Assembly (NCBI GenBank): GCA_945860085.1 | Contig: CAMAPJ010000003.1 | Location: 1-64,000, forward strand | Direction: 5' to 3' | Origin: Synechococcus sp. UW140 | GTDB lineage: Bacteria > Cyanobacteriota > Cyanobacteriia > PCC-6307 > Cyanobiaceae | Length of the DNA: 64,000 nucleotides | In this document: one piece after another, positions 1 through 64,000 of the stretch | Layout of the letters: each line of letters starts with the position of its first letter | Numbering within the stretch: the first letter of the stretch is position 1 | Notes under the pieces: generated by a model | Seen by the model: only the letters and a program-made list of their open reading frames with translations | Told to the model about the DNA's origin: nothing | The model's database searches: none | Translations under genes and position numbers: made by a program

Positions 1-144
1 CGGGATCGACCTCAGATAGCTGATCAGATCGAGATCGGTTGCAGCAAAAGCGCTGTCAGACACAAGGAGGAGGCGATTCCGCCAACCTCAACCCATGCTG
101 ACAGGAGCGGCAAGAGTGCCTGTGACACACTTTGAATCAGCCCT

Positions 145-2465: not shown

Positions 2466-4125
2466 CGCGCCCGTCATCCCCGCTACCTACACCACCGCCA
2501 ATGGCAGCTACCCCAGCGGCGCCCTGATCACGCTGACGCTGCAGTTCTCAGAAGCGGTGCTGGTCACCACAACCGGCGGCACACCGCGTTTGCAACTGGA
2601 AACCGGTGCTATTGATCGCTATGCCACCTACACCTCTGGCAGTGGCACCACTACCCTCTCCTTCACCTACACCGTGCAGGCGGGGGATACCAGTTCAGAC
2701 CTCGATTTCACCAGCACCATTGCTCTGGACCCGAATGGCGGCACGATCAGAGATGCTGCAGGAAATGATGCCATCTTGACCCTCGCGGCTCCGGGTGCCG
2801 CTGGCTCGCTTGGGGCAAATGCGGCATTAATAATTGATGTAGTGGCTCCAACAGTTTCGATATCTAGCAATCTCTCTACCTTAAAAGCTACTGAAACTGC
2901 CACCATCACCTTTAGCTTCTCAGAAGATCCAGGCAGCTCCTTCTACTGGGATGGAACTTCCGGTGATCTAGCGGTGAGTGGCGGAACTCTGTCGAGCCTC
3001 AGTGGCAGTGGCTTAACGCGCACAGCAACCTTTACGCCAACAGCAAATAACAATGCCGGCACCGCCTCGATCTCCGTTACAGCTGGTTCCTATAGCGATT
3101 CGGCTGGCAATAACGGCGCAGCTGGCACAACGCCAGCGCTAACTTTTGATACCTTGGCGCCCAGCTTGACCAGCACTATAAGCCTCTCCAATTCAGCGCT
3201 CACAATCGGCGATACCGCCAACGTCACCGTCTCCTTCTCAGAAGCGGTCACGGCCTTCGACCTCAACGATATCACCAGTGACAACGGCCTGCTTTCTAAT
3301 CTCAGCACAGCTGATAATGGCCACACCTGGACTGCTACCTTCACGCCCACAGCCAACACAACTGATGCCAGCAATCTAATCGGCCTTAATCTCACCACTA
3401 TCACTGACCTCGCTGGTAATGCAGGCAGCGGCAGCGCTGATAGTGGTAATTACACAATCGATACCCAGCGCCCCAGCCTCAGCAACCCGAGCGGACTCAC
3501 CACCACTACTGCCAACGGCAGCTATGCCGTTGGCAGTACCATCACCATCTTGGTGCCCTTCTTAGAAGTCGTAACTGTCAACACATCTAGCGGTACACCC
3601 ACCCTTCTGCTCGAAACTGGTGCCACCGATCGCACCGCTACCTATAGCTCCGGCAGTGGGACGAATACTCTCGCCTTCTCCTACACCGTTCAGACCGGAG
3701 ATACAAGCGCCGATCTCGATTACACCAGCACTATTGCTCTAGACCCGAATGGCGGCACAATCCAAGATGCTGCAGGCAATGACGCCATCCTTAGCCTCTC
3801 GACTCCAGGCGAAGCGGGCTCTCTTGGGGCGAATGCGGCCTTGGTGATCGATACCAGCAACAGTCAAGACGGTCTGGACAATGATGGGGCACTTGATAGC
3901 TATGAAAGCAACAAAGATGCCAACAGCGACGGTACATATGACAACTATCAAGCCAACGTGGCAACATTTATCACTTCAGACGGAACTAGCAGTATCGCCA
4001 TCAGGGACCAGATCATCGCAGAAGAAACCGATCCAGATACGGGCGGCACCCCGTGTCAGCCAATACGTTGCTTTACTTTGACAATGCCACCACTGATCCG
4101 CAGGCGAGCAGTGGCCTACAGCTAA
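262..4125 (+). CDS. FG-GAP/VCBS-repeat and Ig-like repeat protein, N-terminal part (frameshifted)
   Basis: Large, probably secreted or surface protein of unknown role. Residues 1-175 hold FG-GAP/VCBS-like units of about 55-60 residues, each with an acidic calcium-type loop (DADGDLDLFIGN and variants). Residues about 180-430 are two Ig-like domains rich in SGSGTTTLSFTYTVQAGD-type strands. Residues about 435-735 carry five more FG-GAP units. These are followed by further Ig-like (Big-type) domains and a short Asp-rich segment (residues about 1200-1240) resembling thrombospondin type-3 calcium motifs. The stop at 4125 follows a reading-frame break: the natural continuation lies in the ORF that starts at 4053. 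The 5' end is also abnormal, because the repeat frame is already open from 136 and begins mid-unit just after a TGA at 133-135. Base composition is visibly less GC-rich than its neighbours, which suggests a laterally acquired or fast-evolving gene. The product class is clear; integrity and function are not. Confidence 0.75.
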   Translation: MGSTIYFENTASLGATAPAYAAATTNPFGIRYFGVLAYASPDFGDVDGDLDLFIGITQGNIIYFKNTAALGASAPAYATATTNPFGITDVGSNASPVFADTDADGDLDLFIGNRDGNTIYFKNTASLGATAPAYATATTNPFRIIDIGSNASPVLADTDADGDLDLFIGNDQGSTFFFLNTASTPVIPLASSSANGRYSTGGLITLTLQFSEAVFVTGTPRLQLETGATDQFATYSSGSGTTTLSFTYTVQAGDSSADLDQLAANALDLDGGTIKDAAGNNAVLSLASPGSAGSLSANAALIINRATVTALGSSSANGSYRVGSLLTLTVQFSDPVTVTTSGGTPMLGLETGALDRYATYTSGSGTGTLSFSYTVRAGDRSTDLDQLSAHALVLNGGTIQDAAGSDAILALPAPGATGSLGANGTLGLDTQVPTGSLISSSAPAYGAATINPYGITSLGAGAYANPTFADVDGDGDLDLFVGNQDGNILYFNNIATSAVSVPAYATATTNPFGITDIGSWASPVLADVDGDGDLDLFLGTNNGNIVYFNNTAALAATTPTYAAASTNPFEITSLGANAYASPVFGDVDGDGDLDLFIGNAAGNTVYFKNTATLGARNPAYAAATTNPFGITSLDVNIPGVGTYAKPALFDTDGDGDLDLFIGTNNGNIVYFNNTAALGVSAPAYAAAASNPFGINSLGNGTFASPAFADGDGDGDLDLFIGNSAGNTIYFSNTAAAPVIPATYTTANGSYPSGALITLTLQFSEAVLVTTTGGTPRLQLETGAIDRYATYTSGSGTTTLSFTYTVQAGDTSSDLDFTSTIALDPNGGTIRDAAGNDAILTLAAPGAAGSLGANAALIIDVVAPTVSISSNLSTLKATETATITFSFSEDPGSSFYWDGTSGDLAVSGGTLSSLSGSGLTRTATFTPTANNNAGTASISVTAGSYSDSAGNNGAAGTTPALTFDTLAPSLTSTISLSNSALTIGDTANVTVSFSEAVTAFDLNDITSDNGLLSNLSTADNGHTWTATFTPTANTTDASNLIGLNLTTITDLAGNAGSGSADSGNYTIDTQRPSLSNPSGLTTTTANGSYAVGSTITILVPFLEVVTVNTSSGTPTLLLETGATDRTATYSSGSGTNTLAFSYTVQTGDTSADLDYTSTIALDPNGGTIQDAAGNDAILSLSTPGEAGSLGANAALVIDTSNSQDGLDNDGALDSYESNKDANSDGTYDNYQANVATFITSDGTSSIAIRDQIIAEETDPDTGGTPCQPIRCFTLTMPPLIRRRAVAYS

Positions 4126-5465
4126 GGGTTGATAGCAGCGATTCAAGCGTTCATGTCAGCGCTGTATCAGACCTACTAAGCTTCACAATTAACCCAACCG
4201 TCACGACGGTTGGCAGCGTCAATTCTTCTATTATTGCTGACATTACAACCAGTGCCATTGACGCCTTCAAGGCAAACATCCAGGAAGTTGATCTTTACCT
4301 TCCGGAACACGAAGTCACTGGAGGGCAAGAAGTTTATTTCAATTGGAATTCGCTCTATAAAACCAAGGCCAATAATAACGCCATCGAATACTACCTATTC
4401 AACTATAATCCCCTAACAGGCCTAGGCGGCATCCTCTTGGATCGCGATGGCAACGGCAAAATCGATGGAGCCAAGCTCTATCTCAAAGATGGCGAACTTG
4501 GCGATTTTGATGAAACAGTTAATGGCCAAATCGTCGATCCCATTGGTTTTAGCACTCTCGACTCCGCTCCCGTCCTGCACATCACCGCTGACCAGGGACT
4601 AGCCGTTGATGGAGTAGATGGTACCGGACTCTGGCTCTCGCTGGATGTGACAGGCTTCAATTCCCTAACCCAAGGTAACCTGGAGCTCTACAACGCCAGC
4701 ACCGGCGACTCCTATGGCGCCATCGGTGCCACCCTGGGCTCAGGTCCCACTAGTGAACAGTCGATTTATCTCGCCTCTGGAAACACTCTAAATTTCCGCT
4801 ACAGCAATGGTGCTGGTCAAACCACAAACAACCCCGCCATCAGCATCAGCAGCACAGCCACTGGCTTCAGCCTAGGCCTTGATGCCGACCTTAACGGCAT
4901 CTACACCGACTTGATGCTTGACATCAGCAGCTCGATCGCTGCCAGCTCTCCCGCCAGCCTTGCTATGGCCCGCAAGCAACTCACCAGTAGCGATGCCATC
5001 CTTGATCTCACCAACATCTCAGCCAGTGGTATCCACCTAACGCTCGATATTTCAACCGATTGCGGTCTCCATAACCGATTCGGCTTTGTCAAAATTGATC
5101 CGCTCACCGGAACGACCTATTACCAAGTGGCAGGCGTCGCCCAGAACGATGGCGCTGCCTTCCGCAGCGCCGTGTTGAGCCAGTGGATCAACCCCTATGA
5201 AGGCAGCGGCACCAGCCATCTCTACAATAAATCAAAGCAGACGATCACCTGGAGCCTAGACAGCACTGAATCCGGCTATTACGCCCCCGTGATGATTACC
5301 CAGGACGGCGAAGTCCTCACCTTTGGCGCCAGCACCGCCAGCGATAGGCGCCAGCACGTCAAACTGCTGGGAACCAACACCTTTGGCTTTGAAGATCTGC
5401 TCGCAAGCCAGGGATCTGATTGGGACTTCAATGACACCAAAATCAGGGTGAGCCTGCTGGCTTAA
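4053..5465 (+). CDS. C-terminal part of the same repeat protein, DUF4114 domain
   Basis: This ORF opens with GTG at 4053, inside the preceding ORF but in another frame. Its first residues (VSANTLLYFDNATTDPQ) read as a natural continuation of the upstream Asp-rich segment. Adding one C to the C4 run at 4049-4052 would fuse the two ORFs through ...DTGGTPVSANTLLY.... The C-terminus (about residues 400-470) has the DUF4114 pattern, with FGFEDL followed by DWDFND. That domain is common at the end of cyanobacterial calcium-binding extracellular proteins. The middle part has an acidic loop (LDRDGNGKIDGAKLYL) but no recognised catalytic motif. It is probably not an independent gene but the distal third of one protein of about 1,760 residues. 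Confidence 0.7.
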   Translation: MSANTLLYFDNATTDPQASSGLQLRVDSSDSSVHVSAVSDLLSFTINPTVTTVGSVNSSIIADITTSAIDAFKANIQEVDLYLPEHEVTGGQEVYFNWNSLYKTKANNNAIEYYLFNYNPLTGLGGILLDRDGNGKIDGAKLYLKDGELGDFDETVNGQIVDPIGFSTLDSAPVLHITADQGLAVDGVDGTGLWLSLDVTGFNSLTQGNLELYNASTGDSYGAIGATLGSGPTSEQSIYLASGNTLNFRYSNGAGQTTNNPAISISSTATGFSLGLDADLNGIYTDLMLDISSSIAASSPASLAMARKQLTSSDAILDLTNISASGIHLTLDISTDCGLHNRFGFVKIDPLTGTTYYQVAGVAQNDGAAFRSAVLSQWINPYEGSGTSHLYNKSKQTITWSLDSTESGYYAPVMITQDGEVLTFGASTASDRRQHVKLLGTNTFGFEDLLASQGSDWDFNDTKIRVSLLA

Positions 5466-52500: not shown

Positions 52501-52973
52501 AACGCAACTTCGCCAGCCTGGTGGAACATTTGCTTAGCAAGATCGACGCCTCGGAATACCGCCAGCTCTGCACCGAAACCCTGCTCACCCTGGTGACTTT
52601 CGTCGGTGCCAACCCGGAGGTGCGCTTCAACGACTACCTGGCCCTCGATGTGGTGATCGGCCACGCCGTGCGGGTGGGCTGGCAACAGGAACATCCCGAA
52701 ACCCCCAGCTCCCTCTACGGCCAGCACAAGGCCGAGGCCTGGGACCGCTTCTACGTGTCCTCTCCGGGCCAATGCCGGCGCTGGCAACTGCTAGCCCTCA
52801 AAGAGCTGGCTGAGGGTGAACTGGCCCAGAACCAAGCTGAGGCACAAGGCGGGGCCGCTAACGCGCAAGACAGGACCGCCGACGCGCAAGGCAGGGCCGC
52901 CGGCGACCCGGGTTCAGATCGGAGCGCTCAGGGTCATGCAGATGTTGGGCTGCTCAACACACTGCTCGATTAG
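49533..52973 (+). CDS. Phosphorylase-kinase alpha/beta-like GH15-family protein
   Basis: A 1,146-residue protein resembling the alpha/beta subunits of eukaryotic phosphorylase kinase, whose N-terminal part is a glucoamylase-like (GH15) domain. The (alpha/alpha)6 barrel is seen in HTVHGNYGDAWVRDCVYSIQ (residues 77-97), ADDGWGHLQLDATALFLLQL, YGIWERGDKGNHGLPERNASS and GYPAWAVENASLV. A long C-terminal region follows. It probably binds or senses glycogen-like glucans; hydrolytic activity is not assured. The last 40 residues are repeat-derived, and the 3' end overlaps the convergent oxidoreductase gene by 60 nt. The conserved part begins after about 40 variable residues. Confidence 0.82.
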   Translation: MARALDPAGMVPSPVSGTPAPLQLECSTQATAGARQAPLQLEPAEARRTLQALDAQIEAVVLARQHPISGLLPASTAHTVHGNYGDAWVRDCVYSIQCVWGLALAYRRLGGHDTRAFELEQRVLQLMRGLLAAMLRQAAKVERFKISLAPLDALHAKFDTASGEPVVADDGWGHLQLDATALFLLQLAQLTRSGLVVVQTSHERDFLQNLVYYVSRAYRVADYGIWERGDKGNHGLPERNASSIGLVKAALEALDGLDLYGPHGDGRCRLLIPHDAIVRLRRALRSLLPRESASKEVDSTCLAVIGYPAWAVENASLVQRTRQKIRQDLGGPYGYKRFRRDGHQTVIEDHTRLHYQREELAQFECIECEWPLFIAYELVTACCEGRWQEAWSWRDQLDRLAVDVEGVPLLPELYLVPEAAISAERRQPGSQVRIANPNVPLLWTQSLAWLGDLMLQGLLLPEDLDPCGRRLARPLGADRVLVALVPASTAIGEALAQAGLPVTPANPGPDQPSSPRVASSRELSERMAAVGANPKLGLSGHPAVRMEAMATARLYRCGGEQLAFLAAVLEESTFYLSDDPDQLADAVGAELRLLQRHWRHSQPPLLLIPVAEGPFQRTPETILRLGAQLQSGQLEGVPVQLGRLAELQDLAGWVELPAQAQPSSSVRPLGRPLLRASTSKRTLTATEEQELEEIPIPDLAERLWRSTSLTEQAEVLEQLVRRLGPHALLQGPAVSDSVALQVLVEEIYRRGLAQGDWTVVRRCAGTIGLVHPQLEDALTDLLVRQKQVVVGRNYTHESLISQPQGSLAIAAMIERFSGIDGREWMLQQELLLALDGLARLEPALLSGSLTLQLGQLLLLLTGELAAERDLAADEAFEALCGLAPHAIRRRLRAVLTDVEHAKATLQRKEQLHVSGRVRWEVPDPLEELPRGSGWLQHRQRLGALQQVPRDFYPGIWDLLHHCRGLVIGDKLDRRNRLESGPLMSEKTPGERNFASLVEHLLSKIDASEYRQLCTETLLTLVTFVGANPEVRFNDYLALDVVIGHAVRVGWQQEHPETPSSLYGQHKAEAWDRFYVSSPGQCRRWQLLALKELAEGELAQNQAEAQGGAANAQDRTADAQGRAAGDPGSDRSAQGHADVGLLNTLLD
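52842..52904. repeat. 21-nt tandem repeat at the 3' end of the GH15-like gene
   Basis: Three units of exactly 21 nt (52842, 52863 and 52884 onward), encoding AQGGAAN / AQDRTAD / AQGRAAG. It forms a nonconserved C-terminal tail just before the convergent gene overlap. Confidence 0.8.
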
Positions 52974-53906
52974 ATCAGCAAGCTGGAGGGCGCGGGAGGC
53001 CTGCAGGCCATCCACGGCAGGAATTTCGCGGCCGCGCACACATTGGAGGAAGTGCTCCAATTCGGCATAGAGGGGCTCGATCGAGGTGGTGCTCACCTCT
53101 TCGATGAAGCCATCGTTGCGATAGAGCAGTTCGCCGTGGTCGGCGGAAACTGACTGGTGGGTGCGCCGATGGATATGCAGGCTGCGGTTAAGGAAGTCGG
53201 TTTCCACCAGGCTGTCGCGGCAGTGGGCGCTGAGGCTGCGGATCTTGCGATGGGCCATCTTGCTGGCCGTGAGGCTGGCCACCACCCCATTCGCGAAGCC
53301 GAGGGTGGCGTTGACGTAGTCGATTGGGCCGTCGCCACTGCGGCCGCCGGCGGCCGCCAACTGCACCACCGGCGATGCCGCCAGTTCCAACACCAGATCG
53401 ATGTCATGGATCATCAGATCCAGCACGACTGACACATCATTGGCCCGGTCGCCATTGGGGCTGTGGCGCCTGGCTTCCAGCACCACCACCTGCTCGTTGG
53501 CGACCACCTTGGTGAGTTCGCGGAAGGCGGGGTTAAAGCGCTCGATATGGCCCACCTGCAGGAGCCGTGCCGAACCTTCGGCCGCCCGAATCAGGTCAGC
53601 GGCCTCTTCCTGGCTGGCGGCGATCGGCTTTTCGATCAACACATGCAGACCGGCCTGCAGGCATGCCATCCCGACGCGGTGGTGCAGCAGCGTCGGCACA
53701 GCGATGCAGACCGCCTCCACCTCCTGAAGCAGGTCGGTGTAGGAGGGAAACCAGCGACAACCGAACTGCTCGACAGCGAGCTGACCACGCTGGGCATCGA
53801 GGTCGGCGACACCGATCAGTTCGGCATCCCGCAGCAGGCTGAGCACCCGGGCATGGTGCCAGCCCATGTTGCCGATACCGATGACGCCAACGCGTACGGG
53901 CTTCAT
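52914..53906 (-). CDS. Gfo/Idh/MocA family oxidoreductase
   Basis: NAD(P)-dependent sugar or sugar-acid dehydrogenase of 330 residues. The Rossmann start is VRVGVIGIGNMGWHHARVL, followed by the family motif ALIEKPIAAS (here HVLIEKPIAAS) with the catalytic Lys, and VGHIERFNPAF. The C-terminal half is the alpha/beta substrate domain. The second half resembles bacterial UDP-N-acetylglucosamine 3-dehydrogenase-type enzymes of lipid A or polysaccharide synthesis, but the substrate cannot be fixed. ATG 53906 chosen over the open frame to 53981. Confidence 0.88.
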   Translation of the reverse strand: MKPVRVGVIGIGNMGWHHARVLSLLRDAELIGVADLDAQRGQLAVEQFGCRWFPSYTDLLQEVEAVCIAVPTLLHHRVGMACLQAGLHVLIEKPIAASQEEAADLIRAAEGSARLLQVGHIERFNPAFRELTKVVANEQVVVLEARRHSPNGDRANDVSVVLDLMIHDIDLVLELAASPVVQLAAAGGRSGDGPIDYVNATLGFANGVVASLTASKMAHRKIRSLSAHCRDSLVETDFLNRSLHIHRRTHQSVSADHGELLYRNDGFIEEVSTTSIEPLYAELEHFLQCVRGREIPAVDGLQASRALQLADLIEQCVEQPNICMTLSAPI

Positions 53907-53991
53907 GGCGCTGGGGTCGGGGTTGAGGATCACGGCAGCCGGGGGGGCAACAGAAGCGCTCCCTTGATGCCAGCGCCGCAATTATCGACGA

Positions 53992-55260
53992 TCAGCTGTC
54001 CGGCTCGCGGCCCCGGGCGGTGATCTGGACCCGTTCGATGCGCGGGCCATCCATGGCCACGATCACAAACTGATGGCCTTGCCAGCGCAAACTCTCGCCG
54101 GGGGCTGGGATGTGCTGCAAACGCTCCAGCAAAAAGCCCGCCAGGGTGTGGTGGCCATCGGCCTCCGGCAGGTTGAAGGCGAGCTGGCGGTTCAGTTCGG
54201 CGATCTCCAGGTCGCCGGCCACCAGCCAGCTGTCTTCACGCAGCTGCTGGAGGTCGTCATCGGCGCTTTCGGCATCGACGCCATCGCCGACGATTTCGTT
54301 GGTGAGATCGGCCACGGTGACCAGGCCTTCGGTGCCGCCGTGTTCATCCACCACCACCAGCAGCGGCTGGCCGCTGCGAATCACCGGCAGCAAATCGGCG
54401 AGCGAAGCGGTTTCCTGAACCCGGGCCACCGGGGTGATGTAAGGGGCTAGGGGCGTGTCGCTCTGCAGCTGGCCCCGGGCGATCGGTTCGGCCAGGCGAC
54501 GCAGGTCGAGCATGCCGCGCACGTCATCGAGAGACTGGCCAATCACCGGGAAACGGGCGTGGTGGGTGGCATGTACTACCTCCATCATCTCGGCGAAGCG
54601 CACCCCCAACGGCAAGGTGACCATGCCGTTGCGGGGCACCATCACCTCACGCACCTGGGTGTCGCGCAGGGCGAACAGGCCCTCGAGGATGCTGCGCTCA
54701 TCGGGCATCAGGCCGGTGACGCTGTTGGATTCGATCAAGGTTTCCAGCTCGCCGGCCGAGAGGGCGGGCACCAGCTCATCCCAGTTGCGCGGCAAGCCCA
54801 GCAGCCGCAACAACCCATCGCCGAGACGCTCGAGCAGCAGCAGCAGGGGCCCAAGCGTGGCGTTGACCGCCTCCAGCAGGGGGGCCAGCCGCAGGGCCGA
54901 GGCTTCCGGCCGGTGCAGCACCCAGGCCTTGGGCACCAGGCCGCCCACCAGGGTGGCCAGCACCACCAGCATCAGAAAAACCCCCAGGTCGATCCAGGGC
55001 CGCTGGGCGGTTGGATCCCAGCGCACCGCCACGCCGCGGCCGGCCCAGCCCAGGGCCACCAGGGCCAGGGCCGCCCCCAGCTGGGTGGCAACAAGGGCCC
55101 GGCGCAGACGGTGTTGCAAGCGGGCGACGGAGCGGGCGCCGCGATGGCCATCGGCAGCCAGCAGCTGCACCCGGCTGGGGCGCAGATGGATCAGGGCGAA
55201 TTCCCCGGCCGCAAAGAAAGCCAGCAGGGCAAGCAACGCCGCCAGGGCCAGGTAGCGCAT
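53992..55260 (-). CDS. CNNM/CorC-HlyC family membrane protein with CBS domains
   Basis: A 422-residue hemolysin-related membrane protein probably involved in Mg2+/Co2+ transport. The N-terminal CNNM domain (residues 1-170) has three or four membrane helices, including AALLALLAFFAAGEFALIHLRPSR. A CBS pair follows (VREVMVPRNGMVTLPLG, then ARVQETASLADLLP and LVVVDEHGGTEGLVTVADL), and the C-terminal CorC/HlyC domain ends the protein (EDSWLVAGDLEIAELNRQL). Start ATG 55260. Its 5' end lies 15 bp from the tRNA fragment, so it marks the last core gene. Confidence 0.92.
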   Translation of the reverse strand: MRYLALAALLALLAFFAAGEFALIHLRPSRVQLLAADGHRGARSVARLQHRLRRALVATQLGAALALVALGWAGRGVAVRWDPTAQRPWIDLGVFLMLVVLATLVGGLVPKAWVLHRPEASALRLAPLLEAVNATLGPLLLLLERLGDGLLRLLGLPRNWDELVPALSAGELETLIESNSVTGLMPDERSILEGLFALRDTQVREVMVPRNGMVTLPLGVRFAEMMEVVHATHHARFPVIGQSLDDVRGMLDLRRLAEPIARGQLQSDTPLAPYITPVARVQETASLADLLPVIRSGQPLLVVVDEHGGTEGLVTVADLTNEIVGDGVDAESADDDLQQLREDSWLVAGDLEIAELNRQLAFNLPEADGHHTLAGFLLERLQHIPAPGESLRWQGHQFVIVAMDGPRIERVQITARGREPDS

Positions 55261-55275
55261 GGATCGGGCTCTGGA

Positions 55276-55317
55276 TGGGGGTCCCGGGGATCGAACCCGG
55301 CTAAGGCGAATTATGAG
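55276..55317 (-). mobile_element. Fragment of tRNA-Met(CAU) 3' half, candidate attachment site
   Basis: On the minus strand, 42 nt match the 3' half of an elongator tRNA-Met(CAU): anticodon loop CTCATAA (55317-55311), 3' anticodon-stem strand TTCGC, variable loop CTTAG, T-stem and loop CCGGG-TTCGATC-CCCGG, acceptor strand GACCCCC and discriminator A (55276). The 5' half is absent: bases beyond 55317 cannot pair with the anticodon stem, and no GGGGGTC acceptor strand follows. The cut falls precisely at the anticodon loop, as expected for an att site left by a tRNA-targeting tyrosine integrase. Confidence 0.8.
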
Positions 55318-55476
55318 GGAGCCTGGAGGCCAGATCTAGCAATGGATTTCAGCTACGCCATGCCTAGCGGATGCCTAGCCATGGTGGGTAATGTGTCCAA
55401 CCCTGACAAAAGCAGGCTGACTGCGGCCACACCGGCAATCCGGATGGTCAGTGGCGATTAACGAAGAACTCCACCA

Positions 55477-56742
55477 ATGGAGCCCTTTGGGCGTCGGCGA
55501 GCCGCCAAGGCACCAGCCCTAGCGCATAACCAGCGCACAAATGAGCTAAACATCGATACAATTGGGAGCTATCGGGATTCCCGACGGAAATTCCCAGGCC
55601 TTTTCATCAGCTCGGGTCATGCGCGACGGGATAGTCCACCTGCGTTCCAACCAACAGGGCCGCCCCCATCGGCCGGTTCGCGTCCCCTGCAGGCTCTCGG
55701 GGCCTCTGCTCACGAGGAGGGCAACCAACTGACGGACTGGCTGGAACGCTTCGGCACACTCAATGCCATCGCAGCCATCCTGGACGCCGCCCGCAAGCAA
55801 CAGACAGAGGCAGGCCCGCAAGCCGCTGGCGGCAGCGATGCTCGCGCGATGGGGATCGAGGGCTTGGGCTGGCTTTCAGGGGCTATGACCGCAGCCATCC
55901 AGCGAATCCAGCCAGATGGGAGCCAAGAGCCCCGCACACCTCCGATCCAAATTCAGCCGCAGGTGACGCCGGTTGCACCCCTGAGCCCCCACAGGCCCGC
56001 CAACAGCTCAACCCTGGGCCAAGGCCGCTGGGTCCTAGTCGCCCGGCTCTCGATTCACCCGCCAGGCAGCGACGGCGATCGACATGTGCCCCATCGCAGC
56101 GTGCCAGCCGCTGCAGATCGATCACCGAACCCTCAGCGCCCTTCCCGTCCCCAGTGGGTCACGGCAAGCCAGCAGCAGCTGCAGTCTCACCTCGGTGCCT
56201 TCCTGGCCCAAGCCGATGCAGCTGCAGACATCAAAACGGCCGTGGCAGAGCTGTTGAACTGGTGGAAGTTGCATGAAACGGCCATCAGCGATTCCGACAG
56301 CAGCGAGCTGGTGGCCCTGCTGCATGGCTTCATTTGCTCATGGCTGCAGCAGCAAGACCCCAGCGCACTATCCGAGCCAACGACAGGGCTGGATGGACCG
56401 CCAGCCAGCAGCCAGCTGACAAACCCAGAGCTGGAGTCCAAGCTCTTCTCCTGCGGTGACGTGGCCCGGGAGCTCAATTACCAGGAATCGACGATCCGCC
56501 GTTGCGCCAAAAAGTCCTGGCTGTGCGGACCAGGGCCCTACCCCCTACGCGGCATCCCCAGCTTTTATGTGGTGACCAGACCCAATCCAGCGTGCGGGCG
56601 CGGGCACGGCTGGAAATTCCAGCGCATCAAGGCAACCTGCAACGCCAGCAGCAACTCGTCAGCGGCCCAAACAAGGGGGAGAGCAAGACACAACAAGGCA
56701 ACACAAAGCTGCTTTAGACACAACACTTGCAGCCAAATGTGA
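55477..56742 (+). CDS. Hypothetical protein with C-terminal helix-turn-helix
   Basis: A 421-residue open frame from ATG 55477. The first half is Pro/Ala/Gln-rich with no recognisable fold, and the real start may be internal. The C-terminal part (about residues 325-385) reads SCGDVARELNYQESTIRRCAKK, then PSFYVV and GRGHGWKFQRI. This is an excisionase/MerR-like helix-turn-helix followed by a motif common in cyanobacterial phage and island proteins. The frame lies directly behind the tRNA fragment and in front of a terminase-like gene, which fits a role in an integrative element. The function is not known. Confidence 0.45.
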   Translation: MEPFGRRRAAKAPALAHNQRTNELNIDTIGSYRDSRRKFPGLFISSGHARRDSPPAFQPTGPPPSAGSRPLQALGASAHEEGNQLTDWLERFGTLNAIAAILDAARKQQTEAGPQAAGGSDARAMGIEGLGWLSGAMTAAIQRIQPDGSQEPRTPPIQIQPQVTPVAPLSPHRPANSSTLGQGRWVLVARLSIHPPGSDGDRHVPHRSVPAAADRSPNPQRPSRPQWVTASQQQLQSHLGAFLAQADAAADIKTAVAELLNWWKLHETAISDSDSSELVALLHGFICSWLQQQDPSALSEPTTGLDGPPASSQLTNPELESKLFSCGDVARELNYQESTIRRCAKKSWLCGPGPYPLRGIPSFYVVTRPNPACGRGHGWKFQRIKATCNASSNSSAAQTRGRARHNKATQSCFRHNTCSQM

Positions 56743-56752
56743 TCACAGGAGA

Positions 56753-57355
56753 ATGATCCTGATCTCTTCCCAAACGACCTCCATGGCGATGCGACATCGG
56801 CCCGGAGCTTATCTCACACAGGCACCTGACAGGAGTGAGTGCGCAGGCGATTTAATTGAAGTGCTGCGCTCCCAAGCAAGCGAAGAAGATGGCGATGGGC
56901 GACCGCTGTGGAACGCCGCCCAAGAGTCGCCCGCCCAACCAAAACGCCGCGATAGCAGCCGGCGGCATCAACAGCCACCCCGGCCCACCAAAGCAAAACC
57001 TTTCTCGCCGCGGCCCAGCCGCCAGGAGGTGGAGCGGCGTGTCGCAGAGGCTCAACTGTGGATTGCCCAGCGCCTGCCCCTGGTGGACATTCGGGCCAAT
57101 GCCCGACAAAACTGGGGGATCACCAACGTGCGCACCGTCAGCCGCCATCTCTCCCTGGCGCGGCAGCGCATGGTGGAAGAACTGATTAAGAACCGCCTCC
57201 AACACCAGGCCGAGCAGATCTACGGTTTAAACGAACTGATCCACCAGGCCATGGCCGCCGGCCAGTTCAATGCCGCCGTAGGCGCGTTCCGGGTGATCGC
57301 CGAGATCGGTGGACTGCTGCGTGCGCCGCTCAAAGCACCCGAGAGCAGGCTCTGA
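56753..57355 (+). CDS. Phage terminase small subunit-like protein
   Basis: A 200-residue protein whose C-terminal half (about residues 90-190) contains a DNA-binding helix pair (EAQLWIAQRLPLVDIRANA, NVRTVSRHLSLARQRMVEEL) and a final helical AVGAFRVIAEIGGLLRAP. That pattern is typical of small terminase and packaging-initiation proteins. The N-terminal 85 residues are low-complexity. ATG 56753 sits one base behind AGGAG, too close to be ideal; an ATG a few codons later is possible. No large terminase or structural gene is seen in the window, so this looks like a phage-satellite or remnant component. Confidence 0.5.
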   Translation: MILISSQTTSMAMRHRPGAYLTQAPDRSECAGDLIEVLRSQASEEDGDGRPLWNAAQESPAQPKRRDSSRRHQQPPRPTKAKPFSPRPSRQEVERRVAEAQLWIAQRLPLVDIRANARQNWGITNVRTVSRHLSLARQRMVEELIKNRLQHQAEQIYGLNELIHQAMAAGQFNAAVGAFRVIAEIGGLLRAPLKAPESRL

Positions 57356-57442
57356 AACATCCGTATGGCGGATGGAAAATGGCCGCAGCGGCGGCCCCAC
57401 CAAGCAACACCGATAGCATTGCTATTGACGAGTGGGGGCGTC

Positions 57443-57712
57443 ATGGCTGATCTGTTGGTGCGCGGCGTCGATGACGCCCTGGTTCAGGCGCTCAAGAAGC
57501 GGGCCGGGGAGCAGGGCCGCAGCCAGGAAGCGGAACTGCGGGCCATCTTGGCCGCTGCTTTGGTGAGCCCCCCGCGGCGCAACCTGGCTGAATTACTGGC
57601 TGCCATGCCGGATGTTGGGGTGGACGCCGATTTCCAGCGCCAGGACGATCGAGCAGATCGCCGCCATCGCCTTGCTGCACGATCTCACCATGGTGACGCG
57701 CAACATCGATAA
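57443..57712 (+). CDS. FitA/VapB-type antitoxin with altered C-terminus
   Basis: Ribbon-helix-helix antitoxin of the FitA type. MADLLVRGVDDALVQALKKR then GRSQEAELRAILAAAL (residues 1-41) is the DNA-binding domain, and LAELLAAMPDVGVDADFQRQ (residues 50-70) is the toxin-neutralising segment. After about residue 72 the frame continues through out-of-frame toxin DNA, giving an Arg/His-rich tail unlike any antitoxin. ATG 57443 is preferred over the open frame to 57365. Without its toxin it is probably a relic or an orphan repressor. Confidence 0.65.
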   Translation: MADLLVRGVDDALVQALKKRAGEQGRSQEAELRAILAAALVSPPRRNLAELLAAMPDVGVDADFQRQDDRADRRHRLAARSHHGDAQHR

Positions 57713-57761
57713 CTTCGCCGGCTGCGGGGTGCGGCTGCCCAATCCGTTTCAGGGTCGTTGA
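57651..57761 (+). pseudogene. Remnant of VapC/FitB PIN-domain toxin
   Basis: In another frame from the antitoxin, 57651-57761 encodes EQIAAIALLHDLTMVTRNID then NFAGCGVRLPNPFQGR and a stop. This is the C-terminal end of a PIN-domain ribonuclease (conserved QIAAIAL, TRN and NPF positions). The first 90-100 residues with the essential acidic residues are missing. The junction at about 57645-57651 suggests one internal deletion joining antitoxin 3' end to toxin 3' end. Confidence 0.75.
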
Positions 57762-58981
57762 TGGGCTCCCAACGGCTGATCAGGACCCTCCATCGCCCTC
57801 CGCCCTGGAGATGGTTAGCAGGAGGACGACTCTGGCTAAGGCTGGGGTCAGAACCGCTGTGGCGGGTGCCGCTGGAACTGCTCCAGCAGCTGCACTGGTG
57901 GTTGATTCGTCCCTGGCGTTGGCCAAGGCGCCCGCCCAAGGGCCGGCCAGCACTGCCTTGGCAACTGACCCTGCCGGCCTGCTGGCTGAACAGCTATCGG
58001 CCAGCGGAGGTGTCGTGGTGGTGGGCCCTGGGCGTTCGCTCCTGGAGCCAGCTGGCGCAGTACACCCCAGACAGCCTGGCCGGTGCAATGCATGCAAAGC
58101 GCCGGCAGCACTGGCCGGATCAATGCCGCCCTGCCCTGCAGTTGCTGGCCGACAAAGCGGCCCTCCTTGCCTACACGCCCGAGCGCTGGCGAGCTCCATT
58201 CACGCTGCTCCACCTACAACAAAACATTCATCAGCCCGACGGCATCGATGAGGGACACCCAGAGATTCCGAATTGGTGGTGGGAGGCCTTGAGGGCAGAA
58301 GGAGTGGTGCTCAAGCCCCAACGCGGCCATGCCGGCCGGGGGGTGATCCGTTTCCGCTGGTCTGGCTCAGCCCTGGAGCAGCAGGCCCTATTCGGCCAGC
58401 TTCCGGCTGATGCACCGTATGCAGCCGAAGCACCGCCTGCAGCCGATGCCGAACCTCCCACCCCCGCCCAGCTGCTGGCCCATTGGCATCGGCTCTGCCG
58501 CAGCGACGAACCAGCCCTGGCTGCTCCCTACCTTTGCCACAGCAGCGAGCTGCCGGCCGCCGACCCGGCCGTAGTTGTTCGCGTGATTACCTCCCGGCCA
58601 TCGCCTGGGGGGCCGGTTGCCGTGCAGCAGGCCTGGCTGGAAGTGCCGTTGGGCGAGGGCGCAGTGGCCTTCATCCGTGCGGATGGCGTCAGCCTGCCGA
58701 AGCCAGGGGAGCCGTTGACGGCGGCCCAACAGGACGCTCTGGATCGATGGACACAACAACTCCAAAGCAATGCTCCGTTGTGTGTTCGTGCCTGTTTGGA
58801 GGCAGCGAAGGCCATGCACCAGCGGTTGCCAACCATGGACCAGGTGGCCTGGGACTGGATTCCCGCGTCTCCCGAGCCCTTGCTACTGGAGGGCAATGGC
58901 GGCTTTGGTCTGCTGGTGCCCCAACTGTTTGCCCAGCTCAGTACACCCCCGTGCAGCCTTGAGCCCAGGTCCAATCGCTGA
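57761..58981 (+). CDS. ATP-grasp enzyme, sugar-transfer-associated type
   Basis: A 406-residue protein resembling the ATPgrasp_ST family found in polysaccharide and RiPP neighbourhoods. The Trp/Arg-rich N-terminus (residues 1-130) is family-specific. The ATP-grasp part shows LADKAALLAY (130-138), the glycine-rich loop VVLKPQRGHAGRGVIRF (183-198), VVVRVITSRP (271-280) and the C-terminal metal-binding VAWDWIPASPEPLLLEGN (362-379). It would couple ATP to carboxyl activation and amide-type bond formation, with the substrate unknown. ATG 57761 shares its A with the stop of the VapC remnant; a TTG lies one codon earlier. It is followed after 28 bp by the PqqD gene, so it belongs to the RiPP operon. 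Confidence 0.65.
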   Translation: MGSQRLIRTLHRPPPWRWLAGGRLWLRLGSEPLWRVPLELLQQLHWWLIRPWRWPRRPPKGRPALPWQLTLPACWLNSYRPAEVSWWWALGVRSWSQLAQYTPDSLAGAMHAKRRQHWPDQCRPALQLLADKAALLAYTPERWRAPFTLLHLQQNIHQPDGIDEGHPEIPNWWWEALRAEGVVLKPQRGHAGRGVIRFRWSGSALEQQALFGQLPADAPYAAEAPPAADAEPPTPAQLLAHWHRLCRSDEPALAAPYLCHSSELPAADPAVVVRVITSRPSPGGPVAVQQAWLEVPLGEGAVAFIRADGVSLPKPGEPLTAAQQDALDRWTQQLQSNAPLCVRACLEAAKAMHQRLPTMDQVAWDWIPASPEPLLLEGNGGFGLLVPQLFAQLSTPPCSLEPRSNR

Positions 58982-59009
58982 GAGGATATCCATATTTGAT
59001 ATGTGAGCC

Positions 59010-59279
59010 GTGCCCCTCAGCCGCAACCCCGAGATCTGTGCCGCTGAACTGGATGGCGAGATGTGCCTGTTCAACCCCGAGAACGCCGAGTATCTGAACC
59101 TCAACGGCACCGGTTCCAGCATCTGGAACCTGCTCGATGCGCCTGCCGAATTGGAAGAGCTGATCTGCAACCTGCAAGCGCGCTACGCCGTGGACCCGGA
59201 GACCTGCCGCCATGAGACGGAAGCCTTTGTGGCAGAAGCGCTCAAGCGAGGCATGCTCGCGGAAGCCCAACCGGCATGA
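59010..59279 (+). CDS. PqqD-like RiPP recognition element (lasso B1)
   Basis: An 89-residue winged-helix RRE that binds a leader peptide and delivers it to modifying enzymes. PEICAAELDGEMCLFNPENA then YLNLNGTGSSIWNLLD, followed by a C-terminal helical ETEAFVAEALKRGML, is the standard PqqD pattern. GTG start at 59010. Its TGA (59277-59279) overlaps the ATG of the B2 gene, a four-base ATGA overlap that implies translational coupling. Confidence 0.88.
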   Translation: MPLSRNPEICAAELDGEMCLFNPENAEYLNLNGTGSSIWNLLDAPAELEELICNLQARYAVDPETCRHETEAFVAEALKRGMLAEAQPA

Positions 59280-59707
59280 GGCCGCTGCTGCGCTGGCCCA
59301 CCCGGCTGTTTGCCTATGGTTTGTTTTGTCTGCTGGATCACAGCATCTGGCTGCTGATCCAACTGCTGCCCGGCCCAACGCTGATCGGTTTGGCCCGCCA
59401 GCGCCCCTGGACACGCTGGCAACTGCAGCTCGCCCCAGCCCGGCAGCAGCTCTGGCGCAGCCGCCTGGCTTGGCTGATGCGCACCCGCTGCCGGCGCGCA
59501 GGTTGGGCCAGCACCTGCCTGAGCCGTTCGCTAGGTGGCAGGCTGCTGCTGGATCTGATTGGCGTGGCCAATGAACTGCATCTGGGCATGAGCAAGTTCA
59601 GTGATGGCCGCAAGGTGCCCCATGCCTGGCTCAGAGATCCCCAGTCCGGCCGGCTCTACACCCCTGGGCTCAGCCCTGGCGCTGGTGCGCCCCTCACCCA
59701 GTTCTGA
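59276..59707 (+). CDS. Lasso-type B2 transglutaminase-like peptidase
   Basis: A 143-residue protein of the B2 family that removes the leader peptide in lasso-peptide maturation. The N-terminal half is hydrophobic and basic. The papain-like catalytic residues are present: Cys81 in STCLSRSLGGRLLL, His116 in VPHAWLRDP, and Asp121 close behind, with GRLYTPGLS following. The length and arrangement fit a standalone B2. It starts at ATG 59276, overlapping the PqqD stop, and is followed 15 bp later by the asparagine-synthetase-like gene. Confidence 0.88.
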   Translation: MRPLLRWPTRLFAYGLFCLLDHSIWLLIQLLPGPTLIGLARQRPWTRWQLQLAPARQQLWRSRLAWLMRTRCRRAGWASTCLSRSLGGRLLLDLIGVANELHLGMSKFSDGRKVPHAWLRDPQSGRLYTPGLSPGAGAPLTQF

Positions 59708-59722
59708 TCCCCAGCCGCAGTC

Positions 59723-61261
59723 ATGCCTCTTCCGCTGCCCAGCACAGATCCCCAACCTCTGGCCGCGGGGCTTTACAGAACGGATGCCTTCCATCGCCAA
59801 CCCCTTTTTGCGGTGGGCTCCGAGCTGGTGCGCAGCTGGACGGAAGCCCACGCCCTGCATGGGGATGCCCGGCCGGACGATGTGAATCCCGCCTATGTGG
59901 CTGCCCTGATTAGCGGCAACCACAGCGCAGAAGCGGCGCCCTACACCCGCATCCGCCGCTTACCGCGGGCTCAGCACGTGCTGGTTGGTAGCGACGGCGC
60001 GGTGCACGCCAGCGCCTATGACCCGCTAGCTGGTGGGGCAACGGCCATGGAGCCAGAGACGCTGCATCAGTTCCTGCGGCAGGGGTTGCTGGACCACGTG
60101 CAACAGGCCCTGGGGGGGCACAACGGCGCGATCGGCTGCGAGCACAGCAGCGGCCTCGATTCCAATGCGGTGCTCGGTGCCCTGGTGCATGGCATCGGTG
60201 TGGAGCCCCAGCGCTTGCATACCTGGAGCCAGGAAGGGGGCGGTGAGGGAGCTCCCCTGCAGCAGTTCAGGCCGTTTCACCGCTTGCTGCCCGAGCAGTG
60301 CCATCGCTTTGAACCAGGGAATGGTGAAGGGGAGCTGGGCATTGATCTGCTCCAGCAGCAGCTGAATGTGTTTGGGGCTCCAGCCCAAATCGGCGGCAAT
60401 CCCCAGGCCGTGGCGCTGCTGCGCCAGCAGGGCTGCACCGTGCTGTTCAGCGGTTTTGGTGGCGATCAGGCCATCAGCCACAACGCCGCCAATGTGCCCA
60501 GTGACCTGGTGGCGCTGGGGCGCTGGCGGGCCTTGCTGCACTGGATGGGCGGCAGGCGGGCGGCATTAAAAACCGCAGGGGGCCGCGCCCTGGCGCTGAG
60601 CTATCGCCCTTGGGCAGTGAACAAGGTGCTGCGCCGCACCCGCGATTTCTGCTCCAGTGATGTGTTGAGCCGCACGCTCACCCCTGAAGGCAGCAAGTGG
60701 TTAGGGCCTCACATCAAGGAGCAATACCCCTGGGAAATCGATGGCTACCTGAGGCAGCACCACTCGATTCGCCGGCGGGTGCTAGCCGATTGGGTCGCCG
60801 TACGAGCAGAAGACGAAACCCGTCTGGCCGCCTCTCTTGGGATGGCCAAAGCATTTCCCCTGCTGGATGAACGCTTGATTGCGGCCCTACTGCAGCAGGA
60901 TCCGGCGCTGTTTGGTGAGGGTGCTGGCCGCGGGCGGCTGTTGCACCGCAGGGCTTTTGCACCGTTTCTGCCGCCGTTTCTACGCGACAACCCCACCAAG
61001 GACCGTGAGCCAGAAGGCGGCCTAGATCAATGGCGTTCTGAGCTGATCAGCAAGCAACATCAGGCGCTGGAACGCAGCTTGAAGGCAACGAGCGATTGGC
61101 ATCCAGCCCTGGCGAGGTATTGGGATTTGGAGGCGATTCGCCGCGAAACAGAAGACGTGTTGGCCAGCGCTGAGCCGACGATGAAAGGAGTGATGGGCAC
61201 TAGCCGTGCCCTCGCCACCATGAAGGCCCTCAGCGGCTGGTGGCAAGCGCTCGATGGCTAA
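59723..61261 (+). CDS. Asparagine-synthetase-like lasso cyclase (C protein)
   Basis: A 512-residue AsnB homologue. In lasso systems such proteins adenylate an Asp/Glu side chain and form the macrolactam ring. The PPi-loop is GCEHSSGLDSNAV (residues 138-149, SSGLDS instead of SGGLDS), and the second synthetase motif is LFSGFGGDQAISH (241-253). The glutaminase domain is shortened: there is no N-terminal catalytic Cys, and the recognisable part begins with AVGSELVRSW and TRIRRLPRAQHVLV. Glutamine hydrolysis is therefore unlikely and a free-amine or peptide amine acceptor is implied, as in lasso cyclases. The 3' end overlaps the convergent SET gene by four bases. Confidence 0.85.
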   Translation: MPLPLPSTDPQPLAAGLYRTDAFHRQPLFAVGSELVRSWTEAHALHGDARPDDVNPAYVAALISGNHSAEAAPYTRIRRLPRAQHVLVGSDGAVHASAYDPLAGGATAMEPETLHQFLRQGLLDHVQQALGGHNGAIGCEHSSGLDSNAVLGALVHGIGVEPQRLHTWSQEGGGEGAPLQQFRPFHRLLPEQCHRFEPGNGEGELGIDLLQQQLNVFGAPAQIGGNPQAVALLRQQGCTVLFSGFGGDQAISHNAANVPSDLVALGRWRALLHWMGGRRAALKTAGGRALALSYRPWAVNKVLRRTRDFCSSDVLSRTLTPEGSKWLGPHIKEQYPWEIDGYLRQHHSIRRRVLADWVAVRAEDETRLAASLGMAKAFPLLDERLIAALLQQDPALFGEGAGRGRLLHRRAFAPFLPPFLRDNPTKDREPEGGLDQWRSELISKQHQALERSLKATSDWHPALARYWDLEAIRRETEDVLASAEPTMKGVMGTSRALATMKALSGWWQALDG

Positions 61262-62352
61262 GTGCCCAGCACCGCTTGGATGATTAACGCCTGGCGATGG
61301 GCTGCTGCCGCAAGCGTTGCAGCGCCTGGATGCAGTGAGGGTTGAGCTGCAGCTGCCAGCTGATCCAGCAGGCGCAGGTTTGCTGCTCCAATGGCGTTCA
61401 AGCCCTTCTGAGCTAATTGCCGGGCCCCGATCGCGTCGTGGCCGCTGCGTTTAAGGCTTCCTTGCAGTGCCAGCTTGAGCATCGTTTGCACTCGCTCAGG
61501 GTGTTCCTGGTGGCAACACAGGTGGCTGAGCCTCAGACCATCGGGCTCGAGCGTTACACGTGGTGGATCAAAGGGATGCAGGGGTGCTCGTTGGCCTTGA
61601 TGCTCCACTCGAATGGTTCCCACCCCTTCAACCGTGATCTCCAGAGGAGCACTGTGGGCAAACGGGGTGGAGTGATCGCAGTGGCCGTAGTGGAGGGCTA
61701 GATCGAGCACGTCGCGGCGATTGCCGTAGTGGGCAAAACACTCGCGGCTTCCTGCTTGCGCGGTTTTGATCCGCATCGCACCATCGCTGATCGCATAAGG
61801 GGCTCCCTGGTGATGGTGGTTGAGGAGATCAATCAAGGGCATCAGCACCGGCTGGCGATGATCTTTTTCAAGATCGGATCGCCAGCCAAAGCTGCGGGTG
61901 GCCAGGAAGCCCTCGGCCGCCGAGCGTTCCGCCTTGGCCCCATGGCCAGGCTTGAGCGGTGCAAGGGCAGCCGCGACGTTGGCTGAGCCGTCAACAAGCC
62001 GGGCAGGATGCTGGCTGCTCCACCAATGCAACTTGCCAGTGGCGTTGTAGAGCTCGACATGCAGTTGCAGCAGCTCGCGCTGTATCGCGGTGGCGGCTGG
62101 TGGTGGCTGCAGCAACTGCAGGGCATCGGCTGAGCCGGACCATTGGGCCGCCTCAATCGGCAGCAGCAACTCGACGGGCAGGCTGATCAGAGCGCCAGTT
62201 GTTTCTGGTGGTGCCAGCAGGCGCATGGCGCCCTGGGCCACCTCCACTTGCAGCTGGGGATGCCACTGGGCCCCATGGGCAGCGCACAGGTGGGCAATCT
62301 CCGCTAAGAGCGCCGCGGTGGCTGGCTGGTCGCTGGCAATTGCGAGCTTCAT
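61258..62352 (-). CDS. SET-domain protein lysine methyltransferase-like protein
   Basis: A 364-residue protein with the core motifs of Rubisco-methyltransferase-like SET proteins: ATRSFGWRSD (151-160), PVLMPLIDLLNHHHQ (168-182, with the NH knot motif), and RECFAHYGNRRDVLDLALHYG (203-223). A helical C-terminal substrate-binding-like domain follows (QTMLKLALQGSLKR). Such enzymes methylate lysine or related amines with S-adenosylmethionine. ATG 62352 overlaps the stop of the upstream beta-propeller gene (ATGA), so the two are co-translated. A role in modifying the cluster's peptide or a host protein is inference from position only. Confidence 0.7.
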   Translation of the reverse strand: MKLAIASDQPATAALLAEIAHLCAAHGAQWHPQLQVEVAQGAMRLLAPPETTGALISLPVELLLPIEAAQWSGSADALQLLQPPPAATAIQRELLQLHVELYNATGKLHWWSSQHPARLVDGSANVAAALAPLKPGHGAKAERSAAEGFLATRSFGWRSDLEKDHRQPVLMPLIDLLNHHHQGAPYAISDGAMRIKTAQAGSRECFAHYGNRRDVLDLALHYGHCDHSTPFAHSAPLEITVEGVGTIRVEHQGQRAPLHPFDPPRVTLEPDGLRLSHLCCHQEHPERVQTMLKLALQGSLKRSGHDAIGARQLAQKGLNAIGAANLRLLDQLAAAAQPSLHPGAATLAAAAHRQALIIQAVLGT

Positions 62353-63740
62353 TCGAACTCGGCTGGTTGGCTGGCGGGCGAGATGGCCACCACACTCCCA
62401 CTGAGCTGATCCGCCGCGCTGCATGGCCCGGGCGTTGTCTCAGGCTGGAAGGGCGGATGGCCCAATCCAACCCAAAAGGTGGTGCCATCGCTGGCGAGTG
62501 ACCAGGCCGGTAGCTCTGCCTCGAAGCTCAGCCGCGGCGTTTGGTTGATGCGCTGACCGCTGGCTTGCACCGCTGTGATCTGGCTGCGCCAGCGCTGTGA
62601 TGCGCGCTGCTCGCTGGTGAGCAGCAACCAGCCCGCTTGGTTGGCAATCAGATCCATTGCCTGAACGCCGGATCTCAGAGGAATGGGCTGGACCTGAATC
62701 CTGCCGGACTCACCTTTTTTGGCAATGAAGGCCAGACGCCGGGCCGGATCATCACGCCAGGGGCCCAGGCTGCCAATCCAAGCCAGCTGGTTTTGGGCGG
62801 GGGTGGCCCGCTCAATCCAGGCAAAGCGCTGCCCAGCCCCGGGTACTCCTGGCAGCAGATCAATTGCGCTGATGTCTTGGCGCGCTTGCCAAAGGCCATC
62901 TGGCCTCAATTGGTGCACCGCCGCAAAACGCTGCCAGCGGCCGCCGGCCTGCAGCCAACGCTTAAGACCTGGCCCTGGCAACGCCTCAACGGCAAACAAT
63001 TCGCCAGCTAGGGGCAGCAGGGCCGTGGCCCGCCTGCCCGCCAGCCGTTGCACGCTCCAGCGGCTGCCGCCATCGCGCGACACCGCCAGCGCCGAACCAT
63101 GGCGTTCCAGCGCAGGACCTGAGGTCACCGCGTCCGGCACATTGCCGGCAACCACCATCGCGCCTTGGTGCCAGGCCAGGTCGTAGGCGTGAATGAAGCG
63201 AGGCAGCCTGCGCTCTTGCCACCACAGGCTGCCAGTGCTGGAGCGGCGGTAGAGATTGCCCCAGCGCCAGCTGCCGCGGGCATCGGCACCGGTGATCCAG
63301 AGCTGCTGGCCATGGGGCACAAAGCGGCTGATCTCCTCCTCGCTCAGGCTTGCCTCCTGCAGCCAGCGCCCTTGATCGAGGGCATAGGCCCACACCGGCA
63401 CTGGGCCTGCGTTAGCAGTGGGACCGTCGTTGGCGGCATTGCCTAAGCCCACGTAGAGCCGCCCGTCAAAGCGCGCAAGATCCCAGGGGGTGCGCGGCAG
63501 GCTCTGCCAGCAGGCGGGGTAGCGCAGGGCGGCGGGATTGCCCAGGTTGCGGGCCTGCCAGCCTTTGCTGAGCACCTGCAGCGGCGCCGCCGTTGGTTTG
63601 CTGCTTGCTGGTTGCTGCCAAGGCAAGGGGGGGAGCAGCGGCAGGCTGTAAGCCGGCTCGAGCTGGGGCCAGAGCCAGCGGGTCAAGCCAACGCCGGCCA
63701 TTAAGGTCGCGGCAAGGGCCGTCCACTCCTTCTGCCCCAT
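62349..63740 (-). CDS. Membrane-anchored beta-propeller-like protein of unknown function
   Basis: A 463-residue protein with an N-terminal hydrophobic anchor (about residues 5-25, LAATLMAGVGLTRWLW). A repeated strand pattern follows (FDGRLYVGLGNAANDG, GQQLWITGADARG, WHQGAMVVAGNVPD, TTFWVGLGHPP), including a sialidase-type Asp-box SRDGGSRW. This suggests a periplasmic five- to seven-bladed propeller for binding or recognition; no catalytic residues can be assigned. ATG 63740 is paired with the divergent exporter start in a shared CATG. Alternatives at 63755 and 63767 would overlap that gene further. Confidence 0.55.
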   Translation of the reverse strand: MGQKEWTALAATLMAGVGLTRWLWPQLEPAYSLPLLPPLPWQQPASSKPTAAPLQVLSKGWQARNLGNPAALRYPACWQSLPRTPWDLARFDGRLYVGLGNAANDGPTANAGPVPVWAYALDQGRWLQEASLSEEEISRFVPHGQQLWITGADARGSWRWGNLYRRSSTGSLWWQERRLPRFIHAYDLAWHQGAMVVAGNVPDAVTSGPALERHGSALAVSRDGGSRWSVQRLAGRRATALLPLAGELFAVEALPGPGLKRWLQAGGRWQRFAAVHQLRPDGLWQARQDISAIDLLPGVPGAGQRFAWIERATPAQNQLAWIGSLGPWRDDPARRLAFIAKKGESGRIQVQPIPLRSGVQAMDLIANQAGWLLLTSEQRASQRWRSQITAVQASGQRINQTPRLSFEAELPAWSLASDGTTFWVGLGHPPFQPETTPGPCSAADQLSGSVVAISPASQPAEFE

Positions 63741-64000
63741 GCCGCCCGACTTCATCAGCCAGCGCATCCTGCCTCGGCTACAGCGGTGGCGGCTTGTGGC
63801 TCGCTTGGCCCGGGAAGCCGGCTGGCGCCACCTGAGCGGCCTGGCGCTGCTGAGCGGCTTGAGCAGTGTGCTGGATATCGCCGGCCTGGGCGTTGGTGTG
63901 TCACTGCTGCTCGGTGCTGCCCCAGGCACCAGCTGGCAGCTGCCGGTGCAACTCCCCTTGCAGCAGGGGCTGGCGGTATTGGTGGGGCTGATGCTGTTGC
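63739..64000 (+). CDS. Probable ABC exporter (lasso D), 5' part only
   Basis: Open to the window end. 87 residues are visible: a basic amphipathic N-terminus (ISQRILPRLQRWRLVARLAR) followed by a first membrane helix with the pattern of ABC exporter TM1 (GLALLSGLSSVLDIAGLGVG), a short periplasmic loop and the beginning of TM2. The ATPase domain is outside the window. In lasso clusters the D protein is such an exporter, and the position here supports that reading. Confidence 0.55.
   Translation, partial: MPPDFISQRILPRLQRWRLVARLAREAGWRHLSGLALLSGLSSVLDIAGLGVGVSLLLGAAPGTSWQLPVQLPLQQGLAVLVGLMLL

Follow-up and report, generated by a model that had tools for sequence, protein, structure and literature searches.

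Anatomy of an Island Almost Certainly Integrated into a tRNA-Met(CAU) Gene of Synechococcus sp. UW140

Introduction

The tycheposons, a family of mobile elements of marine picocyanobacteria, were reportedly named in 2023. In marine Prochlorococcus they are cargo islands that occupy tRNA genes and encode tyrosine recombinases. Seven targets are reported for them, one of which is tRNA-Met (PMC10872708). The Islander class of tDNA islands is described in broader terms: those that use the anticodon-loop (A) subsite leave an intact tRNA gene and, downstream in the same orientation, a displaced 3′ fragment of it, with a tyrosine integrase between the two, a crossover in the anticodon loop, and an empty site in related genomes (PMC4383910). 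A core with an overlap region is the classic arrangement for tyrosine integrases acting in tRNA genes (PMC8371274, PMC4383910). In lambda-type systems, the integrase combines arm-binding, core-binding, and catalytic domains, clusters of arm sites lie on both sides of the core, and a small xis gene is present.

The DNA analyzed here, referred to as the window, comprises the first 64,000 nt of contig CAMAPJ010000003.1 (C3) of the draft genome of Synechococcus sp. UW140 (GCA_945860085.1, hereafter G000). A preliminary description, prepared from the sequence alone, had suggested that the 3′ half of a tRNA-Met(CAU) gene at 55276–55317 marks the boundary of an island inserted by an integrase, as in the tycheposons. 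Compared with the Islander class, nothing essential differs: an intact tRNA gene and an end fragment of that gene were found, the 3′ fragment lies downstream on the same strand according to the order deduced from the empty site of sister genomes, a tyrosine integrase lies inside the island (C9:4028–4963), and four genomes of the same genus carry the empty site. The island of G000 has its ends on two contigs and an internally deleted integrase, and it fits the general definition of a tRNA island on almost every point. This kind of insertion is already well known; the added value lies in the detailed structure of the ends and in an integrase clade whose members seem to have changed tRNA target.

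The Two Junctions and the Empty Site

The 3′ half of tRNA-Met(CAU) is present as proposed, and the exact repeat is slightly longer than first thought. Positions 55274–55317 of the window (minus strand) match the 3′ half of the intact tRNA-Met(CAU) gene at C9:5094–5166 (minus strand) over 44 nt with zero mismatches, a stretch that opens at the start of the CTCATAA anticodon loop and closes two bases beyond the discriminator. When the copies were compared outside these 44 nt, no further match was found on either side. The window and the intact gene on C9 hold the only two exact copies in the 2.91-Mb draft, and the two further CAU tRNAs of the genome have quite different sequences. A chance origin of the repeat is excluded because of its length. 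ARAGORN and Rfam called no tRNA at the fragment, where Rfam gave chance matches alone, because the 5′ half is missing and only the 3′ half is left. In the intact gene, the CTCATAA loop is bracketed by the palindromic stem GCGAA/TTCGC. Its counterpart in the window (55311–55317, minus strand) is where the identity of the two copies begins, as does the repeat of a complete related island in genome G203, and this 7-nt loop is the putative overlap region of strand exchange.

The gene that bounds the island on the left encodes a CNNM/CBS/CorC_HlyC membrane protein (53992–55260, minus strand; Pfam CNNM, CBS, and CorC_HlyC), which is 97–98% identical in four sister genomes and stands there beside the intact tRNA-Met. 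The next core gene (52914–53981, minus strand), oxidoreductase-like by inspection, is 87–96% identical in its N-terminal part in L036–L039, where it adjoins the CNNM gene in the order of the empty-site genomes. The 8.7 kb to the right of the fragment are absent from the sister genomes except for short patches, which bears out the proposed switch from core to accessory genes at the fragment.

Five other genomes of the same genus were compared. Four of them carry a single copy of the repeat, always as part of an intact tRNA-Met, and the fifth (G004) gave no tRNA match and counts neither for nor against. All four show the unbroken order pyrE, hypothetical ORF, tRNA-Met, CNNM/CBS gene, and oxidoreductase-like gene. 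G000 splits this order: pyrE, the ORF, and tRNA-Met lie on C9, and the CNNM/CBS and oxidoreductase-like genes lie in the window, where the fragment runs into the left flank as it does in the four sisters. Once the flanks of G000 had been joined by script through the 44-nt repeat, the resulting 444 bp aligned end to end with the four relatives (83–86%). By itself, the C9 junction stops aligning to them at base 246, where the repeat ends, and the alignment of the C3 junction begins no earlier than base 201, the start of the repeat. Because the joined empty site aligns end to end while each junction aligns in part, there is direct evidence of an insertion that separated the anticodon loop from the CNNM gene.

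The preliminary description had called for strains with an uninterrupted site, and these four genomes provide them. It had also named two patterns that would speak against an island, namely an intact tRNA-Met elsewhere with no island between, and the same fragment with the same flanks in all relatives; neither was found. A lone truncated tRNA copy left by an old duplication, with no mobile element involved, would look like the fragment in the window. Such a pseudogene is ruled out by the empty site in the four sisters, and the integrase beside the intact copy and the arm sites at both ends likewise oppose it, which leaves this origin a negligible probability.

The Integrase and Its Deletion

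The intact tRNA-Met with an identical end, expected on the minus strand, is located on C9, and the anticipated tyrosine integrase stands next to it. The integrase gene (C9:4028–4963, minus strand) encodes 311 aa, begins about 130 nt behind the tRNA, and is followed by a convergent xis-like gene (3749–4048) and then by the gene of a 998-aa Prim-Pol/DUF3987 replication protein (689–3685). In most islands at tRNA-Met and tRNA-Leu, the xis-like gene behind the integrase is 82–93% identical, and this small conserved gene presumably has the role that its likeness to xis suggests.

An alignment of the integrases revealed that the G000 copy has lost, in frame, 168 bp (56 aa) found in its intact relatives, and that the break point carries short imperfect repeats. 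The usual catalytic residues of tyrosine integrases are retained, and the PF00589 score of this deleted copy is below the curated cut-off. In the AlphaFold model of a full-length relative (L080), an N-terminal three-stranded domain plus a helix is accompanied by a core-binding region built of helices and by a catalytic domain. Judged by modeling, the loss removes three of the five predicted core-binding helices. Since these 56 residues are gone, the integrase is probably dead and the island frozen at present, barring an assembly error in the deletion; the deleted copy may not itself have been the agent of the insertion. Another integrase (L043/L086), also shortened in that region, is degraded.

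Arm-Type Sites and Proposed Mechanism

Four TAGGCA sites lie upstream of the G000 integrase gene, at −67, −56, −25, and −13 from its start. Four such hexamers also precede the integrase genes of most of the closer relatives, at nearly fixed positions whichever of four tRNA types is occupied. At the opposite end, on the island side of the distal junction, the window contains a pair of putative integrase arm-type sites, TAGGCATCCGCTAGGCATG (55359–55377, minus strand), which are 11 bp apart and share motif and spacing with the distal ends of the islands of G203 and of a second genome, G116. The background frequency of TAGGCA in sampled DNA of G000 is about 0.3 per kb, both strands together. The pattern TAGGCAYNNNNTAGGCATG occurs in three of 400 family genomes, at one site each, and these are the far ends of the G000, G203, and G116 islands; the reversed pattern, used as a control, gave one match. 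In draft genomes, this short arm-site motif picks out distal island ends.

The L080 model matches lambda integrase along its whole length, with modest confidence and about 15% identity in the structure match. On the basis of this model, the TAGGCA clusters are read as arm-type sites, to which the integrase would presumably bind. Features in common with lambda-type systems are an integrase with predicted arm-binding-like, core-binding, and catalytic domains, clusters of arm sites to either side of the core, and a small xis-like gene. Unlike lambda, the island has an integrase of low identity, shows no phage genes, and targets a tRNA anticodon loop.

The locus is almost certainly a mobile island that integrated site-specifically into an elongator-type tRNA-Met(CAU) gene. 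In the proposed mechanism, the tyrosine integrase would bind the TAGGCA arm-type sites flanking the island attP, and strand exchange would take place where attP and the chromosomal tRNA-Met gene share the 7-bp anticodon loop CTCATAA. The tRNA 3′ half carried by the island would restore a full tRNA gene beside the integrase on C9, and the original 3′ half would be displaced to the far end, where it would now form the 44-nt fragment at 55274–55317 of the window, the distal attachment site. The exact cut positions, the functions of the arm sites, and the assignment of C3 and C9 to opposite ends of a single island are inferred. No direct overlap was detected between the ends of the two contigs, and no contig joins both ends of the island; two separate elements or a mixture of strains would, strictly speaking, still be conceivable.

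Unrelated contigs might also have been joined in the assembly through the short tRNA repeat. The draft consists of 162 contigs, is 85% complete with 2.9% contamination, and the 44-nt repeat is a possible point of mis-joining. However, the arm-site pair adjoining the fragment, about 60 nt, and two ORFs match the G203 and G116 islands at the same position in their distal ends, as a random mis-join would not, and an artefact is accordingly very improbable. With an inserted island as the preferred reading, a guess from raw sequence has become an exactly mapped element with its junctions, its empty site, and its presumed integrase binding sites.

Island Extent and Cargo

On C3 the island occupies 55318–71804, where the contig ends, and on C9 it occupies 1–5093, a minimum of 21.6 kb in all; 55318–64000 fall within the window. 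A segment of the remaining part (C3:70467–70703) resembles the interior of related islands. The first gene (55477–56742, plus strand) encodes a 421-aa protein that has no Pfam or PHROG match; in blastp, it is 28–32% identical over 153–196 aa to a 447-aa ORF of G203 and a 506-aa ORF of G116, and its C-terminal part is conserved at those distal ends. The second (56753–57355, plus strand) encodes a helical protein of 200 aa with five homologues, one of which, a 194-aa ORF, is 61% identical and occupies the same place in the G203 island. Its structural model has a low-confidence fold and gave no structural match. Homologues were noted at G000:C130:720–1044 (L078), G001:C44 (L071), and G005:C66 (L072). 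Because they occur elsewhere in G000 and in empty-site sisters, other related islands or remnants probably exist in these genomes.

The cargo that follows, all on the plus strand, begins with a FitA-like antitoxin gene (57365–57712; Pfam FitA-like_RHH, 5.8e-13) and an ATP-grasp-like gene (57758–58981; Pfam ATPgrasp_ST, 8.7e-05, sub-threshold). Next come a PqqD-like gene resembling lasso B1 (59010–59279; Pfam PqqD, 6.1e-18; NCBIfam lasso_PqqD below the cut-off), a lasso-peptide B2-like protease gene (59276–59707; Pfam Transglut_core3; NCBIfam lasso_biosyn_B2, 38.3 bits against a cut-off of 33), and an asparagine-synthase/lasso-cyclase-like gene (59723–61261; Pfam Asn_synthase, 2.1e-08). An ABC exporter gene (C3:63739–65466; Pfam ABC_tran and ABC_membrane) enters the window at 63739–64000 and runs past its end. 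Other island genes encode a glycosyltransferase, a nucleotidyltransferase, an HPr-kinase-like protein, and a sulfotransferase. A simple motif search near the cargo genes returned no lasso precursor peptide, and no relaxase or mating-pair genes were present among the proteins scanned from the incomplete island. A second, diverged and partial copy of lasso-like cargo lies at G000:C70:6083–8094 (L076, L079), with 65–74% DNA identity to 59312–60981 of the window.

An integrase, a Prim-Pol/DUF3987 replication protein, and an xis-like gene are common in phage satellites. All three are present here, as would be expected if the island were a satellite or a prophage remnant. Against this stands the absence of any phage structural or packaging family among eight island proteins scanned against PHROGs; the same eight, taken from outside the unsequenced middle of the island, included no packaging or capsid-hijacking genes. 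Moreover, neither the integrase nor the 200-aa protein has a match in 50,697 phage records or in the scanned viral contigs, and the idea that the latter is a small terminase found no support in PHROGs, phage records, or structure searches. A phage-derived origin is considered improbable.

Related Islands and the Integrase Clade

Relatives were sought in 400 family genomes and in GTDB contigs. Most of the closer relatives have their integrase gene behind an intact tRNA gene, which is Met(CAU), Leu(UAA), Arg(CCU), or Ser(UGA). Two single-contig genomes carry complete islands with the layout seen in G000: that of G203 is at tRNA-Met, has a 43-nt repeat, and measures 58.6 kb from the tRNA start to the repeat end, and that of G116 is at tRNA-Leu, with a 58-nt repeat and a length of 46.6 kb. 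Islander elements are defined as 2–200 kb on a single replicon, which is to be set beside these lengths and the minimum obtained for G000 over C3 and C9. In both genomes, a TAGGCA site pair precedes the distal repeat, as in G000. A search over 60 kb revealed no distal repeat for G089, G227, or G027. The G203 island carries BREX-like genes (BrxL, methylase) and the G116 island metal-resistance genes (MerR, P-type ATPase, multicopper oxidase). Thus, the island ends are conserved and the cargo varies.

In the integrase tree, one clade of 14 members (support 99/98) includes tRNA-Met, Leu, Arg, and Ser targets in different genomes. A near-universal single-copy recombinase falls outside it, as do the sampled marine tRNA-adjacent recombinases, some of which sit 5′ of tRNA-Ser. 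Most family genomes searched encode a conserved tyrosine recombinase (about 390 aa) that has no tRNA next to it (L126, L069, L122, L120, L124, L064, and others).

These data bear on the name given to the island at the outset. The same broad host group, the presence of a tyrosine recombinase, a bordering tRNA gene, and tRNA-Met as a reported target (PMC10872708) would all suit a tycheposon in the strict sense, that is, a member of the marine picocyanobacterial family. In contrast, the integrase clade stands apart from the sampled marine tRNA-adjacent recombinases, and the G000 integrase is 3′ of its tRNA, on the other side from that of the marine tRNA-Ser group. Strict membership is considered unlikely. 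An integrase acting within a tRNA gene, as the preliminary description had it, is well supported, with the intact tRNA and the integrase on another contig; the label tycheposon outran the evidence.

About evenly balanced, in our estimate, is the proposal that these elements form a family of freshwater picocyanobacterial islands distinct from the marine tycheposons, where "freshwater" and "marine" are labels presumed from record titles and genome sizes. Such a family would share the same TAGGCA sites, its integrases would move among the anticodon loops of tRNA-Met, Leu(UAA), Arg(CCU), and Ser(UGA), and its cargo (BREX, metal resistance, lasso peptide) would be freely exchanged. The clade can be regarded as a natural series in which an integrase family switched its tRNA target and kept its arm sites, and would be useful for studies of specificity change.

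In the rebuilt tRNA of L080, the 5′ stem GCGGA pairs with the 3′ stem TTCGC, a combination that would fit tRNA halves of different source. The rebuilt tRNA-Met genes at L080:7798–7870 and L081:7798–7870, which adjoin related islands, contain wobble pairs between their halves, a possible trace of an island-borne 3′ half. Finally, L085 and L088 (CALPNT020000134.1 and CALPNT020000004.1), titled as a Bifidobacterium breve MAG, contain picocyanobacterial island sequence, and their label or bin looks wrong.
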